Shown in pieces: positions 16,741-25,344 of a DNA stretch of 32,130 nt (positions are counted from its first letter, which is position 1; the number at the start of each line of letters is the position of its first letter). The stretch is from an uncultured Bacilli bacterium (GTDB taxonomy: Bacteria > Bacillota_I > Bacilli_A > RF39 > UBA660). The notes beneath the pieces were generated by a model. That model had not been told where the DNA came from, searched no databases, and worked only from the letters and a program-made list of their open reading frames with translations. Both the position numbers and the translations under genes were made by a program. Location: positions 1-32,130 of the forward strand of contig CANQFJ010000018.1 of assembly GCA_947598485.1 (NCBI GenBank), written 5' to 3'.

Positions 16741-17247
16741 GTGATTAGTCTGAAAATAGAAACACTCATTTTACCACCAATTAATAATAATTGCTATATT
16801 TTAACCTCTGGAGATAAAGCTATTATAATTGATCCGGCATCAGAAAAGGATAAAATTATTGAGGCTTGTAATGGCTATGAAGTAGTAGAAATATTAGTAA
16901 CTCACCATCATTTTGATCATATTGGAGCTTTACTAGATTTAGAAAATTATTATCATTTAAAACATAATAATTTTAAAAATACCTTTAATTATGAGGTTAT
17001 AAAAACCCCAGGTCATAGTAGTGATTCTCTAACTTTTTATTTCCCTAAAGAAAAGGTTATGTTTTCTGGAGATTTTATCTTTAAAGACAGTATTGGTAGA
17101 ACTGATTTCCCAGAGTCTAATCCTTTAGATATGATTAATTCTTTAAAAATGATTAGCACTTATTCTGATGATATTACTATTTACCCAGGACATGGTCCAA
17201 TTACTAATTTAGGTCAAGAAAAAAGACATTTTAATTACTATTTTTAA
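16741..17247 (+). CDS. glyoxalase II-like MBL-fold hydrolase
   Basis: This protein of 165-168 residues has the metal-binding motif THHHFDHIGAL, the second-site His in TPGHSSDSLTFYF, the bridging Asp in FSGDFIFKDSIGR, and the terminal His in YPGHGP. These are all hallmarks of the hydroxyacylglutathione-hydrolase-like group (YqgX/GloB-like). Substrate is unknown; many Bacillota members act on thioesters. The start is unclear: GTG 16741 is itself inside the ribosome-site-like GAGGTGAT, while in-frame CTG 16750 sits at proper spacing and yields the family-typical N terminus (M)KIETLILPPINNNCYIL. The gene ends inside a hairpin shared with the convergent GerQ-like gene. Confidence 0.9.
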   Translation: MISLKIETLILPPINNNCYILTSGDKAIIIDPASEKDKIIEACNGYEVVEILVTHHHFDHIGALLDLENYYHLKHNNFKNTFNYEVIKTPGHSSDSLTFYFPKEKVMFSGDFIFKDSIGRTDFPESNPLDMINSLKMISTYSDDITIYPGHGPITNLGQEKRHFNYYF

Positions 17248-17257
17248 AATGTCTTTT
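17221..17257. terminator. perfect 14-bp bidirectional terminator
   Basis: AAAAGACATTTTAA (17221-17234) pairs perfectly with TTAAAATGTCTTTT (17244-17257) around a 9-base loop. The outer A and T runs supply a U-tract on either strand. Both the MBL gene (stop 17245-17247) and the GerQ-like gene (stop 17244-17246) end within it. Confidence 0.85.
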
Positions 17258-17612
17258 CAGAATAAAGATGATTGTAATTTATTGGTTCCATAAACTCAAC
17301 GTAATCAAGATATAAGATTCTTATTAAGTACCAATTGCCATTTAAAGTATCTTTAATAATTAAATGATCTTTTCCTGCTTCTTCTATTAAACCTGTGAAG
17401 ATGCTGTTTTTCCATTCCGTGCTATCAGGAAAAGATACATAAGCTTTAACTTTACGCCCCTTATTAAGTCTTAAAATATTTTCAATATAACTTTGTTCAT
17501 TATAATCTTCTTGCTCGCTAACAGAACTTATGTTTCCTGGTGGAGTATTATAACCATTATTATTCATTTGATTGCCAGGAAATGTGGGGTTTTGATAAAA
17601 ATTTCCGTTCAT
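17244..17612 (-). CDS. gerQ: GerQ-like spore coat protein homologue
   Basis: The 122-residue protein has an Asn/Gly/Pro-rich N terminus (1-28), then a domain closely matching B. subtilis GerQ (YwdL). Matches are QSYIENILRLNKGRKVKAYVSF, STEWKNSIFTGLIEEAGKDHLIIKD, and GNWYLIRILYLDYVEFMEPINYN. In B. subtilis GerQ is a coat protein crosslinked by transglutaminase Tgl and needed to place the cortex hydrolase CwlJ. Length is slightly below the Bacillus protein (181 aa) because the N terminus is shorter. A GAGGTG ribosome site precedes the ATG. TATAAT (17635-17630) is a candidate -10. Whether the host sporulates cannot be told from this window. Confidence 0.85.
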   Translation of the reverse strand: MNGNFYQNPTFPGNQMNNNGYNTPPGNISSVSEQEDYNEQSYIENILRLNKGRKVKAYVSFPDSTEWKNSIFTGLIEEAGKDHLIIKDTLNGNWYLIRILYLDYVEFMEPINYNHLYSEKTF

Positions 17613-21577: not shown

Positions 21578-22252
21578 ATGAAAAAAATAATGATTATAAT
21601 GATATTTAGTTTATTAACCACTGGATGTTTTAAAGAAGAAAAAAATAATTTAGTTGATGTGCCTATAGATACCACACCTATAGAAACTAGTGATGAATAT
21701 GTAGATAATAATCCGGTTATAGTTAGTATTTATAAAGAAAATGAAACAGGAGCTTTAGATAAAGTTATTGATAAATATGTAACTAAATGGGAGAAGAAAA
21801 AAGACATAGTTGTTTTAGCTACACTGCCTACGGATATAGAACACCCAGAATATGATTATATGCAAAATTTATGGCCTAAGTTTGATTCAGAATATGAAGA
21901 TGTAAACTATAAAATTGGCTGGAGTTTAAGCTTTGATTTAAAAAATGGCGAAAATATAACCTCAACTATTTTAAAGCCTAGTGATGCAGCATTTTATTAT
22001 GATTACCTTGAGGTATATCTTTATGATGATGTTAATGTTTCTATTGGCCAATGGCACTCTCATTTACTTGATGATGAAATAAATGATAATACTATAATGG
22101 ATGCAATTAAGCTAACTGCCGGAGAAAATTATGATGAGATAACTGGACCCATCAGTTTGACAGTATTTTCTTATGACGATCTTGAGGACTTTGATGAAAA
22201 TGGTAAATACCAAGGTAAAAGTTTATATCAAGTAAAAATTTATAATAGTTAA
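21578..22252 (+). CDS. putative lipoprotein, unknown function
   Basis: The 224-residue protein has a lipoprotein signal: MKKIMIIMIFSLLTTGC, lipobox LTTG-C17. An acidic spacer (18-50) and a globular domain rich in beta strands and Asp/Glu follow. That domain includes YKIGWSLSFDLKNGENITSTILKPSDAAFYYDYLEVYLYDDVNV and QWHSHLLDDEIN. I do not recognise the fold. It is expected to be lipidated and face outside. It lies just upstream of the repeat-protein/SipW locus but has its own predicted promoter, so a shared role is only suggested. Its start lacks a ribosome site and looks leaderless. Confidence 0.85.
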   Translation: MKKIMIIMIFSLLTTGCFKEEKNNLVDVPIDTTPIETSDEYVDNNPVIVSIYKENETGALDKVIDKYVTKWEKKKDIVVLATLPTDIEHPEYDYMQNLWPKFDSEYEDVNYKIGWSLSFDLKNGENITSTILKPSDAAFYYDYLEVYLYDDVNVSIGQWHSHLLDDEINDNTIMDAIKLTAGENYDEITGPISLTVFSYDDLEDFDENGKYQGKSLYQVKIYNS

Positions 22253-22256
22253 ATTG

Positions 22257-22285
22257 TTGTTATAAAAATTCGATTATGCTATAAT
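22257..22285 (+). promoter_or_regulatory. promoter of the repeat protein-SipW operon
   Basis: TTGTTA (22257-22262) and TATAAT (22280-22285) are 17 bp apart. The -10 is extended (TGC-TATAAT). A GAGGAG ribosome site follows before TTG 22312. Confidence 0.75.
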
Positions 22286-22311
22286 TTTATATATAATGAG
22301 GAGAGTATAAA

Positions 22312-24387
22312 TTGAGTGAACTAGAAAATGAAAAAGCTATAATTAATGAATCTCCTGATTTTGAGACTCAAAGAGAAATAATAAATGAAGAAAAAGTTGC
22401 TCAAAAAAAGTTGAGAAAATTTTATATACATATAGGCTGTGTATTTTTTTTGATATTTATAATTATAATTACAGCTTATGTAACGGTTGATTTATATCGA
22501 GAATATAATTTCTTTAGTAATGATGTTTGTCTAAATGTTAATATTAATACTGATGGTGATGATTTTAAAAATATTAATGTTGCGGAAACTAAAGCCTGTG
22601 CTCCCGATTACAATATTGATTATTTTAATAATCGAAAAGCAACCTTTAATATTGACCTATTTGGTGATAAATCATATATTTTCAATCCTGTAGCTCAAAA
22701 TGATGAAAATGGTTATTGTAAATTAAATTGTGATTCTAATGGTGATAATTGGCCAGACTATAATATTGATTTAAATGGGGATAAAATTGCAGATATTAAT
22801 ATTGTTAAAGACTATGTTAATAGTAACAGATGTGATTTAAATTGTGATTTAAATCATGATACAATACCTGATACTAATATTGATACAAATAATGATGGTA
22901 TACCTGATATAAATATAACGGATTCCCTTAACAATAATAAACCGCGTTATAATGTTGATTACAAAGGTAATCGCAAACCTGAGTTTAATATTCAAAATCC
23001 TGATGGATCAATATTTAACCCCGTTAAAGAAGTTACTCCAGGCGTTTATTGTGATTTAAATTGTGATATAGATGGTGATGGTTGGCCTGATTATAATATA
23101 AAATTATCTGATAGAGAAACTCTTTTAAATCAGTTATATCAAACAGGAAATTCTTCTGTAGATTATAATAGTAGTAAAACAGCAGATTGGAAATGTTTTA
23201 TTTCAAGTATTTTGCCTAGTTGCGATACGAATAAGAAGACCGCGGACAATGAATACCTTAATATTGATGTTAATGGTGATGGTATACCTGATGTCAATCT
23301 ATCTAGTGATAATGGAAATAATATAACTAATAAGGTAAATACTAAAGCAACTTATAATGGTAATTCCATTATTTTAAATGAAGATTATGATAATAATGGG
23401 TTCCCCGATTTTAATATTGATATAAATGGGGATGGTATTCCCGATTTAAATATCACACAGCCGGGTACGCATACTTGTAATAAAAATTGTGATACTAATT
23501 ATGATGGCATCGCGGATTATTTGATTGATTATGATGGTAAACAAAATAATGTTATAGGAGTTAATAACTCAAATTTAGATATTGATTTTGATGGTATATG
23601 TGATGTCAATTGTGATACAAATTATGATTTATATCCAGATTTAAACATTGATATTGATGGAGATAATATTCCCGACATTAATATTGATACGAATAATGAT
23701 GGCCTAGCTGATTTCAATATCGATACTGATGGTAATCATATAGCTGATAGCAATCTTTCTGCAAGACTTGATGGAACGTGTAATTTCAACTGCACTGATA
23801 GACCTGAAACTATAATCGATTACTCTGAAAGCTGCACTACAAACTGTGATACTGATAAAGATGGTTGGCCAGATACTAATGTTGATTTGGATTATGATGG
23901 TATATGCGACATAAACTGTGATAATAAGACAAATAATATTGATAATAATCATGATTATTTTATAGATGATAATGATAAAACGAAAGATTTAGTTATTGAT
24001 CAAAATAATCGCGGTACATTTTATGTCTTAAATCCGATTGATATAACTGCTAATGATATTGAGCCTGGGTGGAAAGACACTTACGTTTTAAAAGTTACTA
24101 ATAATGCCGAATATGCTATGGCATATACTATTGACTGGCAAGATGTCATTAATGAATTTACAGAAGAAAATAATTTAAATTATGAAATAGTAAAAAATGG
24201 GGGACTTTTTTTAGGAGAAATGAGGACTCCGTACCAAAATATAGTAATAAAAGATGAAATATATATAAGACCTAAATCTACAGTTAAATATATTTTAAAA
24301 ATTGAATGGCGTGAAACTGGTGAAAATCAAAATATTGACAGTGGCAAAAGATTTTATGGAAAGCTAATTATAACACCAAAAAACTAA
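22312..24387 (+). CDS. membrane-anchored Asp/Asn-rich (TSP3-like) repeat protein with TasA-like C-terminal domain
   Basis: This 691-residue protein starts at TTG behind GAGGAG. It has a charged cytoplasmic segment (1-37), one membrane helix (about 38-60, ending ITAYVTVD), and an extracellular region (70-560) of imperfect repeats of the type D-x-N/D-x-D-G-x-P-D-x-N-I. Examples are DVNGDGIPDVN at 319-329 and DIDGDNIPDIN at 447-457. Such Asp/Asn loops bind calcium in thrombospondin type 3 repeats. Eight CxxxC pairs sit at repeat borders (136/140, 174/178, 247/251, 389/393, 430/434, 490/494, 508/512, 532/536). The C-terminal 120 residues (IEPGWKDTYVLKVTNNAEYAMAYTIDW) look like the TasA/camelysin sandwich. 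A SipW-type peptidase follows 19 bases downstream. Function is unknown; a calcium-stiffened surface stalk or fibre is inferred. Confidence 0.85.
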   Translation: MSELENEKAIINESPDFETQREIINEEKVAQKKLRKFYIHIGCVFFLIFIIIITAYVTVDLYREYNFFSNDVCLNVNINTDGDDFKNINVAETKACAPDYNIDYFNNRKATFNIDLFGDKSYIFNPVAQNDENGYCKLNCDSNGDNWPDYNIDLNGDKIADINIVKDYVNSNRCDLNCDLNHDTIPDTNIDTNNDGIPDINITDSLNNNKPRYNVDYKGNRKPEFNIQNPDGSIFNPVKEVTPGVYCDLNCDIDGDGWPDYNIKLSDRETLLNQLYQTGNSSVDYNSSKTADWKCFISSILPSCDTNKKTADNEYLNIDVNGDGIPDVNLSSDNGNNITNKVNTKATYNGNSIILNEDYDNNGFPDFNIDINGDGIPDLNITQPGTHTCNKNCDTNYDGIADYLIDYDGKQNNVIGVNNSNLDIDFDGICDVNCDTNYDLYPDLNIDIDGDNIPDINIDTNNDGLADFNIDTDGNHIADSNLSARLDGTCNFNCTDRPETIIDYSESCTTNCDTDKDGWPDTNVDLDYDGICDINCDNKTNNIDNNHDYFIDDNDKTKDLVIDQNNRGTFYVLNPIDITANDIEPGWKDTYVLKVTNNAEYAMAYTIDWQDVINEFTEENNLNYEIVKNGGLFLGEMRTPYQNIVIKDEIYIRPKSTVKYILKIEWRETGENQNIDSGKRFYGKLIITPKN
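22729..23955 (+). repeat. coding tandem repeats (Ca-binding type, degenerate)
   Basis: The DNA encodes many near-repeats of GAT-x-AAT-GGT-GAT-GG-ATA-CCT-GAT-x-AAT-AT type units of about 12-13 codons. Some occur in runs (about 23566-23745) and some are separated by unrelated spacers. Recurrent blocks include TGTGATTTAAATTGTGAT, found at about 22831 and 23050. The pattern suggests growth by internal duplication with later drift. Confidence 0.75.
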
Positions 24388-24406
24388 ATAGAAAGGATAA
24401 AAAGGG

Positions 24407-25087
24407 ATGAAAACAAAATATAATCGTAAATATATTTTTAAATATCTATCCACGATATGTTCATGGACCCTTTTTATATATTTAGTCCTTATCGCGGCAT
24501 TTTTACTGTTTTATTTTATTAATATTAAAATAATAAATCGAGATAAAGTAAGTCAACCATTATCAATTTACACAATTATAAGTGGTTCAATGATTCCGAC
24601 TATAGATATTTATGATGTTGTAATTAATATTAAGGTCGATAATCCCAAAGATATTAAAGAAGGCGATATAATTACCTTTATATCACAAAGTTCTATCTCT
24701 AAAAATTTGACAGTTACTCATAGAGTAAAAGATATTCAAGTCGTAAATGGAGAATATCAATATACAACCAAGGGAGATAATAATCCAATTCAAGATTCTG
24801 CTCCCGCTACATATGACAATGTAATTGGTAAAGCTGTTCTTAGAATTCCTCAATTAGGAAGGGTACAAGCCTTTATTGCTAGTAGATTTGGCTGGCTGGT
24901 TATAGTAATATTACCAGCAGTATACATTATTTTTAAAGATGTAGTTAAACTAATTAGAATAAGTAAACTTCAAAATGTTTCTAAGAAAGAAAAAGAAAAG
25001 ATTATAGACAATGATAAAAAAGATTATGACGATGATGAAAATGATGATATAATAGACGATGATGAAAGGGACGATGAAGATGACTGA
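24407..25087 (+). CDS. sipW: SipW-type signal peptidase I (Ser-His dyad)
   Basis: The 226-residue protein has a membrane helix (about 16-38), the catalytic serine motif ISGSMIPTI (Ser61), and TVTHRV with His105 in place of the usual bacterial Lys. A Gly-Asp motif TKGDNN (122-127) and a second membrane helix (about 162-177) follow. The Ser-His pair marks the archaeal/ER-like SipW branch, which in B. subtilis matures TasA and TapA. The last 26 residues (201-226) are almost entirely Asp/Glu/Asn and cytosolic, an unusual tail. A GAAAGG-type site precedes the ATG. Its likely substrate is the repeat protein just upstream. The end overlaps the DUF1292-type gene by 8 bp. Confidence 0.92.
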   Translation: MKTKYNRKYIFKYLSTICSWTLFIYLVLIAAFLLFYFINIKIINRDKVSQPLSIYTIISGSMIPTIDIYDVVINIKVDNPKDIKEGDIITFISQSSISKNLTVTHRVKDIQVVNGEYQYTTKGDNNPIQDSAPATYDNVIGKAVLRIPQLGRVQAFIASRFGWLVIVILPAVYIIFKDVVKLIRISKLQNVSKKEKEKIIDNDKKDYDDDENDDIIDDDERDDEDD

Positions 25088-25334
25088 AGGCGATTTAATA
25101 ATTCTTGATAATGAGGAAAGATATTCCTTACTAAAAAAGATATCTCTTAATGGAGATACCTATTTTATGGCCGCTTTTGTAAAAGATGATGATTTAGTAG
25201 ATAAAGAAAGAATAGTTTATTTTAGAGTAGAACAAGATGAAGATGAACAATATGTCGATCTAATAACAAGTGAAAAGGTTATAACTGAACTTACTAAAAA
25301 ATTAGCCGATGATGTAACGAAGGGTGCTAAATAG
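25080..25334 (+). CDS. DUF1292-type small acidic protein
   Basis: The 84-residue protein MTEGDLIILDNEERYSLLKKISLNGDTYFMAAFVKDDD..VYFRV-like..VDLITSEKVITELTKKLAD matches the DUF1292 pattern (short beta-rich acidic proteins of unknown function, often beside yrrK/yqgF in Bacillota). Here it is coupled to sipW instead: ATG 25080 lies 9 bases after GAAAGGG and overlaps the sipW end. Earlier in-frame ATGs (25059, 25062, 25074) are badly placed relative to the site. It overlaps the convergent symporter gene by 8 bp, inside a terminator. Confidence 0.75.
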   Translation: MTEGDLIILDNEERYSLLKKISLNGDTYFMAAFVKDDDLVDKERIVYFRVEQDEDEQYVDLITSEKVITELTKKLADDVTKGAK

Positions 25335-25344
25335 CATCTTTTTT
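25323..25344 (+). terminator. terminator of the repeat protein-SipW operon
   Basis: GGTGCT (25323-25328) pairs with AGCATC (25333-25338), one G-T wobble, AAAT loop, followed by six T (25339-25344). The DUF1292 stop codon is in the loop/3' arm. Confidence 0.8.

Follow-up and report, generated by a model that had tools for sequence, protein, structure and literature searches.

The window, that is, the whole stretch of 32,130 nucleotides analysed here (contig C18 of a genome of only 1.26 Mb, 97% complete), encodes a membrane-anchored protein in which a long stalk of calcium-type repeats carries a C-terminal head that profile comparison assigns to the TasA/camelysin type, and the stalk gene is followed by a gene for a Ser-His signal peptidase of the SipW type. 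The pairing of stalk and sipW is no local accident. Indeed, the stalk was present in nine of the ten genomes of the genus, the window's own included, and sipW adjoined it in all nine. So far, TasA-type fibres have been described chiefly in Bacillus and its relatives and, in a related form, in archaea. We find that such a system is widespread in a large family of bacteria with reduced genomes, whose gene content suggests that they are Bacilli, and that many of its genera have a membrane-bound version with a calcium-type stalk and a SipW of its own. We propose, with about even confidence, that the stalk is calcium stiffened and made together with SipW, and that its head serves as a base for secreted TasA-like proteins. 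This offers a hypothesis for how TasA-type fibres might be held on the cell without a sortase, by pairing of the stalk head with small TasA-like proteins. The initial annotation of this locus held up as an observation, and its interpretation held in part.

The cassette consists of genes for a lipoprotein, the stalk protein, SipW, and a small acidic DUF1292-like protein, in this order (Table 1). The lipoprotein gene is preceded on its 5' side by ftsE, ftsX, and an M23 peptidase gene, identified by Pfam/NCBIfam matches, and a gene resembling a dicarboxylate symporter, assigned by eye, faces the cassette from the opposite strand. Further away, positions 17244-17612 (- strand) encode what we take to be a GerQ-like protein, with a YIENILRLNKGRK motif. 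The TTG start codon of the stalk gene has an AGGAG at 22299-22303. The last three genes had been described as coupled and enclosed by one promoter and one terminator, and all of this was recovered. The promoter (TTGTTA, 17 nt, TGCTATAAT) is kept in most of the genus, although a simple promoter scan alone did not place it above shuffled sequences. The terminator, a hairpin followed by a run of U, ends the three-gene unit.

Table 1. Features of the cassette (positions in the window)
Feature	Position	Strand	Evidence or remark
Lipoprotein, 224 aa, lipobox-like LTTGC	21578-22252	+	Next to stalk gene in 9/9 genus cassettes
Promoter TTGTTA-17-TATAAT with TG (extended -10)	22257-22285	+	Recognisable in 8/9 genus members
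Stalk protein gene, 691 aa, TTG start	22312-24387	+	Orthologues in 9/10 genus genomes (own included), 49-73% identity
Predicted cytoplasmic tail, residues 1-40, conserved DFETQREIINEE motif	22312-22431	+	Genus alignment and background comparison
Transmembrane segment, residues ~41-59	22432-22488	+	Exit TAYVTVDLY, a degenerate SipW-type GATFA↓YF site
D/N-rich calcium-type repeat stalk, residues ~73-545, period 12, 20 Cys	22528-23946	+	Loop counts, genus alignment
TasA/camelysin-like C-terminal domain, residues 558-691, IEPGW ... NQNIDSGKRFYG	23983-24384	+	hhalign Prob 98.6, E 8.9e-16
sipW, Ser-His (ER-type) signal peptidase, 226 aa, acidic C-terminal tail	24407-25087	+	TIGR02228, alignment, SEC11 matches
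SipW Ser61 codon	24587-24589	+	Column invariant
SipW His105 codon	24719-24721	+	Column invariant
DUF1292-like small acidic protein, 84 aa	25080-25334	+	Start overlaps sipW stop by 8 nt
Intrinsic terminator, over last codons of DUF1292-like gene	25319-25342	+	-10.2 kcal/mol, z -3.3, six U

The sole genus genome without the cassette (G001) is rearranged in this region. A profile search across the family matched 83 of 291 genomes, spread over 47 of 150 genera; these counts are upper bounds, since some of the matches are heads of small proteins. We annotated 42 loci, chosen from the better profile matches and hence not a random sample; co-occurrence was counted in draft genomes, where contig ends cut several loci. 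The annotated stalks fall into two classes, a short-tail class, to which the window's stalk belongs, and a long-tail class with ~95 residues before the membrane. Among 21 short-tail stalks elsewhere in the family that had five or more loops, 13 had 3 kb or more of flanking sequence on each side. In 11 of these 13, sipW lay within 3 kb; L100 and L120 are fully flanked short-tail loci without a neighbouring sipW. Of 13 long-tail stalks, 8 of which were fully flanked, one had sipW within 1 kb. The co-occurrence of repeat protein and sipW is thus a property of the genus and of most short-tail loci. Relatives in which the repeat protein has no sipW beside it, named initially as a ground for refutation, do exist, mainly in the long-tail class, so that the initial interpretation is refuted in part on this point. 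A small TasA-like gene lies at most ~220 bp from the stalk in L051, L099, L104, L105, L110, and L112 and is often the next gene in short-tail loci; no such gene adjoins the genus cassettes. In the remainder of the class, matches were very weak or confined to repeats on their own, and stalk and head did not occur together; a scan of genome and viral contigs returned no stalk and one weak archaeal SipW relative.

The long-tail proteins (L114, L115, L118, L119, L121, L123-L125, L127, and L129; e.g., L124:8307-9590) are mostly ~425 aa long, and their ~95-residue region ahead of the membrane helix is conserved (..LPxxLxVxK..). At L110:1434-2840, a tandem pair of SipW-type genes adjoins one stalk gene.

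The initial description of a 691-residue anchored protein with D/N repeats and a TasA-like C terminus was borne out by the gene call, the loop counts, and the profile comparison. The motif of its N-terminal tail is the genus version of a family tail motif, DYEEQYxxLEEEE, which is conserved across genera. D16, Q20, I23, E26, and E27 are invariant across the genus, and none of 42 background tails harbored a related motif. Such conservation, together with the conserved N-terminal region of the long-tail class, would suit a mechanosensor or calcium sensor whose tail signals inward upon stretching of the rod or loss of Ca2+. We consider this very improbable, since no signalling gene (kinase or anti-sigma factor) was recognised beside the genus stalks and the tail has merely about 40 residues in the window's genus.

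Between residues 65 and 560, the strict loop D-x-[DN]-x-[DN]-[GN]-x-x-[DN] occurs 13 times versus 0.8 expected from 2000 composition-preserving shuffles (shuffle maximum, 6), and a looser form occurs 29 times versus 3.6. Nine of the 13 strict loops are exact Dx[DN]xDG, a calcium motif common to many unrelated families (PMC3123361). The repeats recur every 12 residues (36 nt), and their copies are only about 60-80% alike, suggesting that they are old rather than freshly amplified. The extracellular cysteines, mostly in CxxxC pairs and mostly invariant within the genus, suggest disulfides. The repeats had been called TSP3-like. Calcium-type DxDxDGxxD loops far above chance agree with this, but TSP3 identity is not supported: neither TSP3 nor dockerin models matched the stalk at E values up to 1, in a search where the HMMER composition correction may mask such repeats, and "calcium-type" is therefore as far as the sequence allows us to go. 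In common with other Dx[DN]xDG calcium loops, those of thrombospondin type 3 repeats included, they combine DxDxDGxxD with Cys pairs (PMC3123361); unlike TSP3, they have a 12-residue period, NID-xxGDGxPD. Matches of Pfam Ntox24 and NCBIfam MSCRAMM models were judged compositional, since they were located on the D/N-rich repeats. Single-sequence AlphaFold2 models were of low confidence (pLDDT 40 for residues 548-691 and 36 for residues 388-691) and were not used. Across the family, stalks range from 318 to 1473 residues, with about 5 to 96 loops. In the stalk at L051:5380-6690, the calcium loops give way to an Asn/Asp-rich linker and a beta-sandwich domain of the cadherin-like type (PF12733), which shows that the middle part of the stalk can be exchanged.

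The head comprises the last ~134 residues of the protein. Compared as profiles, the nine genus heads matched a set of 17 small secreted family proteins (Table 1), and 45 stalk heads matched the small-protein profile even more strongly (Prob 99.5, E 1.3e-22), while reversed and unrelated control profiles reached a Prob of just 0.1-0.3%. The common core reads xEPGW ... NNxxxYxxxW ... QNxDxGKxF. One of the 17 proteins, P0004 (L051), passes the cut-offs of PF12389 (27.2 versus 22.5) and of the SipW-signal model TIGR04088. The window protein had no match to PF12389, the head reached no Pfam or NCBIfam TasA model, and PDB profile searches with A1 and A2 gave no TasA chain among the matches. As the head alone falls short of PF12389 and TIGR04088, its link to TasA is transitive, through P0004. 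On these profile comparisons, the domain is of the TasA/camelysin type, in good agreement with the initial annotation. P0004 also resembles C. perfringens BsaA (TIGR04090), SipW-dependent matrix proteins, with a score of 31.2 bits; it remains, however, under the TIGR04090 cut-off of 60, and BsaA has no stalk fusion.

In the small proteins of the family, the membrane segment ends in GATFA↓YF, close to the TasA cleavage site TWA↓AF (PMC10269814). A SipW-like motif, [GASV][ASTV][TS][FYW], is found at the membrane exit of 17 of 36 family stalks versus 12 of 144 background membrane proteins, and in alignment the stalk corresponds to a TasA-type protein whose signal region and sandwich are set apart by an insert of repeats. 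Both observations would fit a secreted fibre subunit, in which SipW cuts the stalk at its transmembrane end and frees a donor strand and the calcium rod spaces TasA-type beads in the polymer. Nevertheless, the window's stalk lacks a cleavable GATFA↓YF-like signal, and the motif is kept in only one of the nine genus members, which mostly have Y or D instead of Ala at the expected -1 position. Its loss in the other eight, together with the conserved cytoplasmic tail motif, which would have no purpose after cleavage, favours membrane retention in the genus and makes a secreted subunit quite improbable. Rather than a secreted fibre subunit, we therefore favour a probably uncleaved membrane anchor for TasA-like material. 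Somewhat less doubtful, though still unlikely, is that the protein represents a TasA-type subunit with a calcium rod between donor strand and sandwich, a design known to date from this genome-reduced Bacilli family alone. It would form either a donor-strand-exchange fibre or the base of one, with a repeat length set by the number of loops.

The assignment of the neighbouring gene as a Ser-His SipW peptidase was confirmed. The protein scores 99.9 bits against the archaeal/ER-type model TIGR02228 (cut-off, 51.85), its best PDB matches are SEC11A and SEC11C, which belong to the signal peptidase complex of eukaryotes, and the invariance of Ser61 and His105 holds in an alignment with 20 family SipWs (21 sequences in all). 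It reached 85.6 bits of the 190 required by NF046067, the Bacillus SipW equivalog, and is thus of the SipW type but outside the Bacillus orthologue model. Long extensions at the C terminus bring the SipW proteins encoded at L051:4015-5310, L054:978-2186, L130:9438-10520, and L105:6750-7847 to 360-431 aa. The window's own genome also encodes a bacterial type I signal peptidase of the ordinary kind (TIGR02227), a second Ser-His peptidase (G000:C1:57259), and about 11 further TasA-like matches. These potential substrates and the second Ser-His peptidase leave the enzyme's supposed dedication to the stalk unproven, and the cassette SipW may also process other TasA-like proteins of the genome. For the same reasons, the description of the locus as self-contained is not supported. 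Six of the TasA-like paralogues lie in tandem at G000:C11:26849-31697 (L169:6850-11698), each with a GATFA↓YF-type signal; they mostly end in xDQSxLxGKxFxGxVxVxxxxC, and no signal peptidase gene adjoins them within the L169 stretch. Near the second Ser-His peptidase, at L065:533-4986 (G000:C1), there are Tad/Flp pilus-like genes (TadE-like and CpaF-like, by eye).

In TasA fibres, each subunit donates its N-terminal strand to the one that follows (PMC9674648), and membrane-associated TapA gives the first strand and so starts the fibre (PMC10151520); a role comparable to that of TapA is ascribed to B. cereus CapP (PMC13082335). On the simplest reading, the N-terminal tail of the stalk would remain cytoplasmic and the single transmembrane helix would anchor the protein, while the Dx[DN]xDG repeats, by binding Ca2+ and with the help of disulfides, would form a rod of adjustable length that keeps the Ig-like, TasA-type head away from the membrane. 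SipW would free the small secreted TasA-like proteins from their signal peptides. Most likely, the head would then act as the cell-bound base that starts or holds fibres of these proteins, presumably through a strand contact, and would play toward them the role of TapA or CapP toward TasA/CalY.

Several lines of evidence argue for such a membrane tether: the homology of the head to small SipW-type secreted proteins, P0004 among them; the position of sipW beside the stalk in the genus and in most short-tail loci, with small TasA-like genes near several stalks; the TasA-like matches in the window's own genome, including the six-gene run; and the excess of calcium-type loops in a stalk whose range of lengths fits a spacer. 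Against it stand the genus cassettes without an adjoining small TasA-like gene, L100, L120, and the long-tail stalks without sipW, and the failure of the head to reach TasA models or PDB chains. In addition, the tight linkage of the stalk to SipW has an indirect explanation if the stalk is uncleaved.

Long-tail stalks without sipW, the widely varying stalk length, and the compositional likeness of the family's repeats to MSCRAMM Sdr/Clf stalks would also be expected of a free-standing adhesin, whose TasA-type head binds host, mucus, or neighbouring cells and whose sipW linkage is a relic of an origin as SipW substrate. We regard this as unlikely, if the least so of the alternatives, since sipW linkage persists in short-tail loci, TasA-like genes frequently adjoin stalks, and the head retains the motifs of the small secreted proteins instead of diverging as a ligand-binding tip would. 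The staphylococcal Sdr/Clf adhesins share the long D-rich stalk bearing a beta-sandwich head; however, the stalk described here is N-terminal and helix anchored, the head is C-terminal, and the C terminus (KLIITPKN) has no LPXTG.

A close parallel to the tether is the tapA-sipW-tasA operon of B. subtilis, which likewise places a Ser-His SipW gene beside a TasA-type domain protein. There, TapA, the membrane-associated partner of TasA, is encoded alongside, and reading frames overlap (PMC10151520). Here, no TapA-like gene was recognised, a membrane anchor and a long calcium-type stalk form one protein with the TasA-type domain, and lipoprotein and DUF1292-like genes are added. Similarly, the sipW-tasA/CapP/calY system of B. 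cereus combines SipW and TasA-type subunits with a third protein controlling filament assembly; CapP, however, is described there as cell-wall localised, and the available part of that source mentions no calcium-type stalk (PMC13082335). We found no published description of SipW or TasA combined with calcium-type repeats in the open-licence literature, in line with the initial view that the arrangement is uncharacterised.

The lipoprotein and DUF1292-like genes are genus-level accessories, as neither was found in the ~60 other loci searched outside the genus cassettes. The start of the DUF1292-like gene, ATG 25080, was set by conserved relatives. Its product is small and acidic, as annotated, but scores 21.2 bits against PF06949, below the Pfam gathering cut-off of 24, and hence is called only DUF1292-like. 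The gene is present in eight of nine genus cassettes and in none of the other loci. The lipoprotein matches no Pfam or NCBIfam family. Its gene, absent from the initial annotation, is the immediate 5' neighbour of the stalk gene in all nine genus cassettes, even in L013 and L020, which have a different gene further upstream, indicating that it moves together with the cassette.
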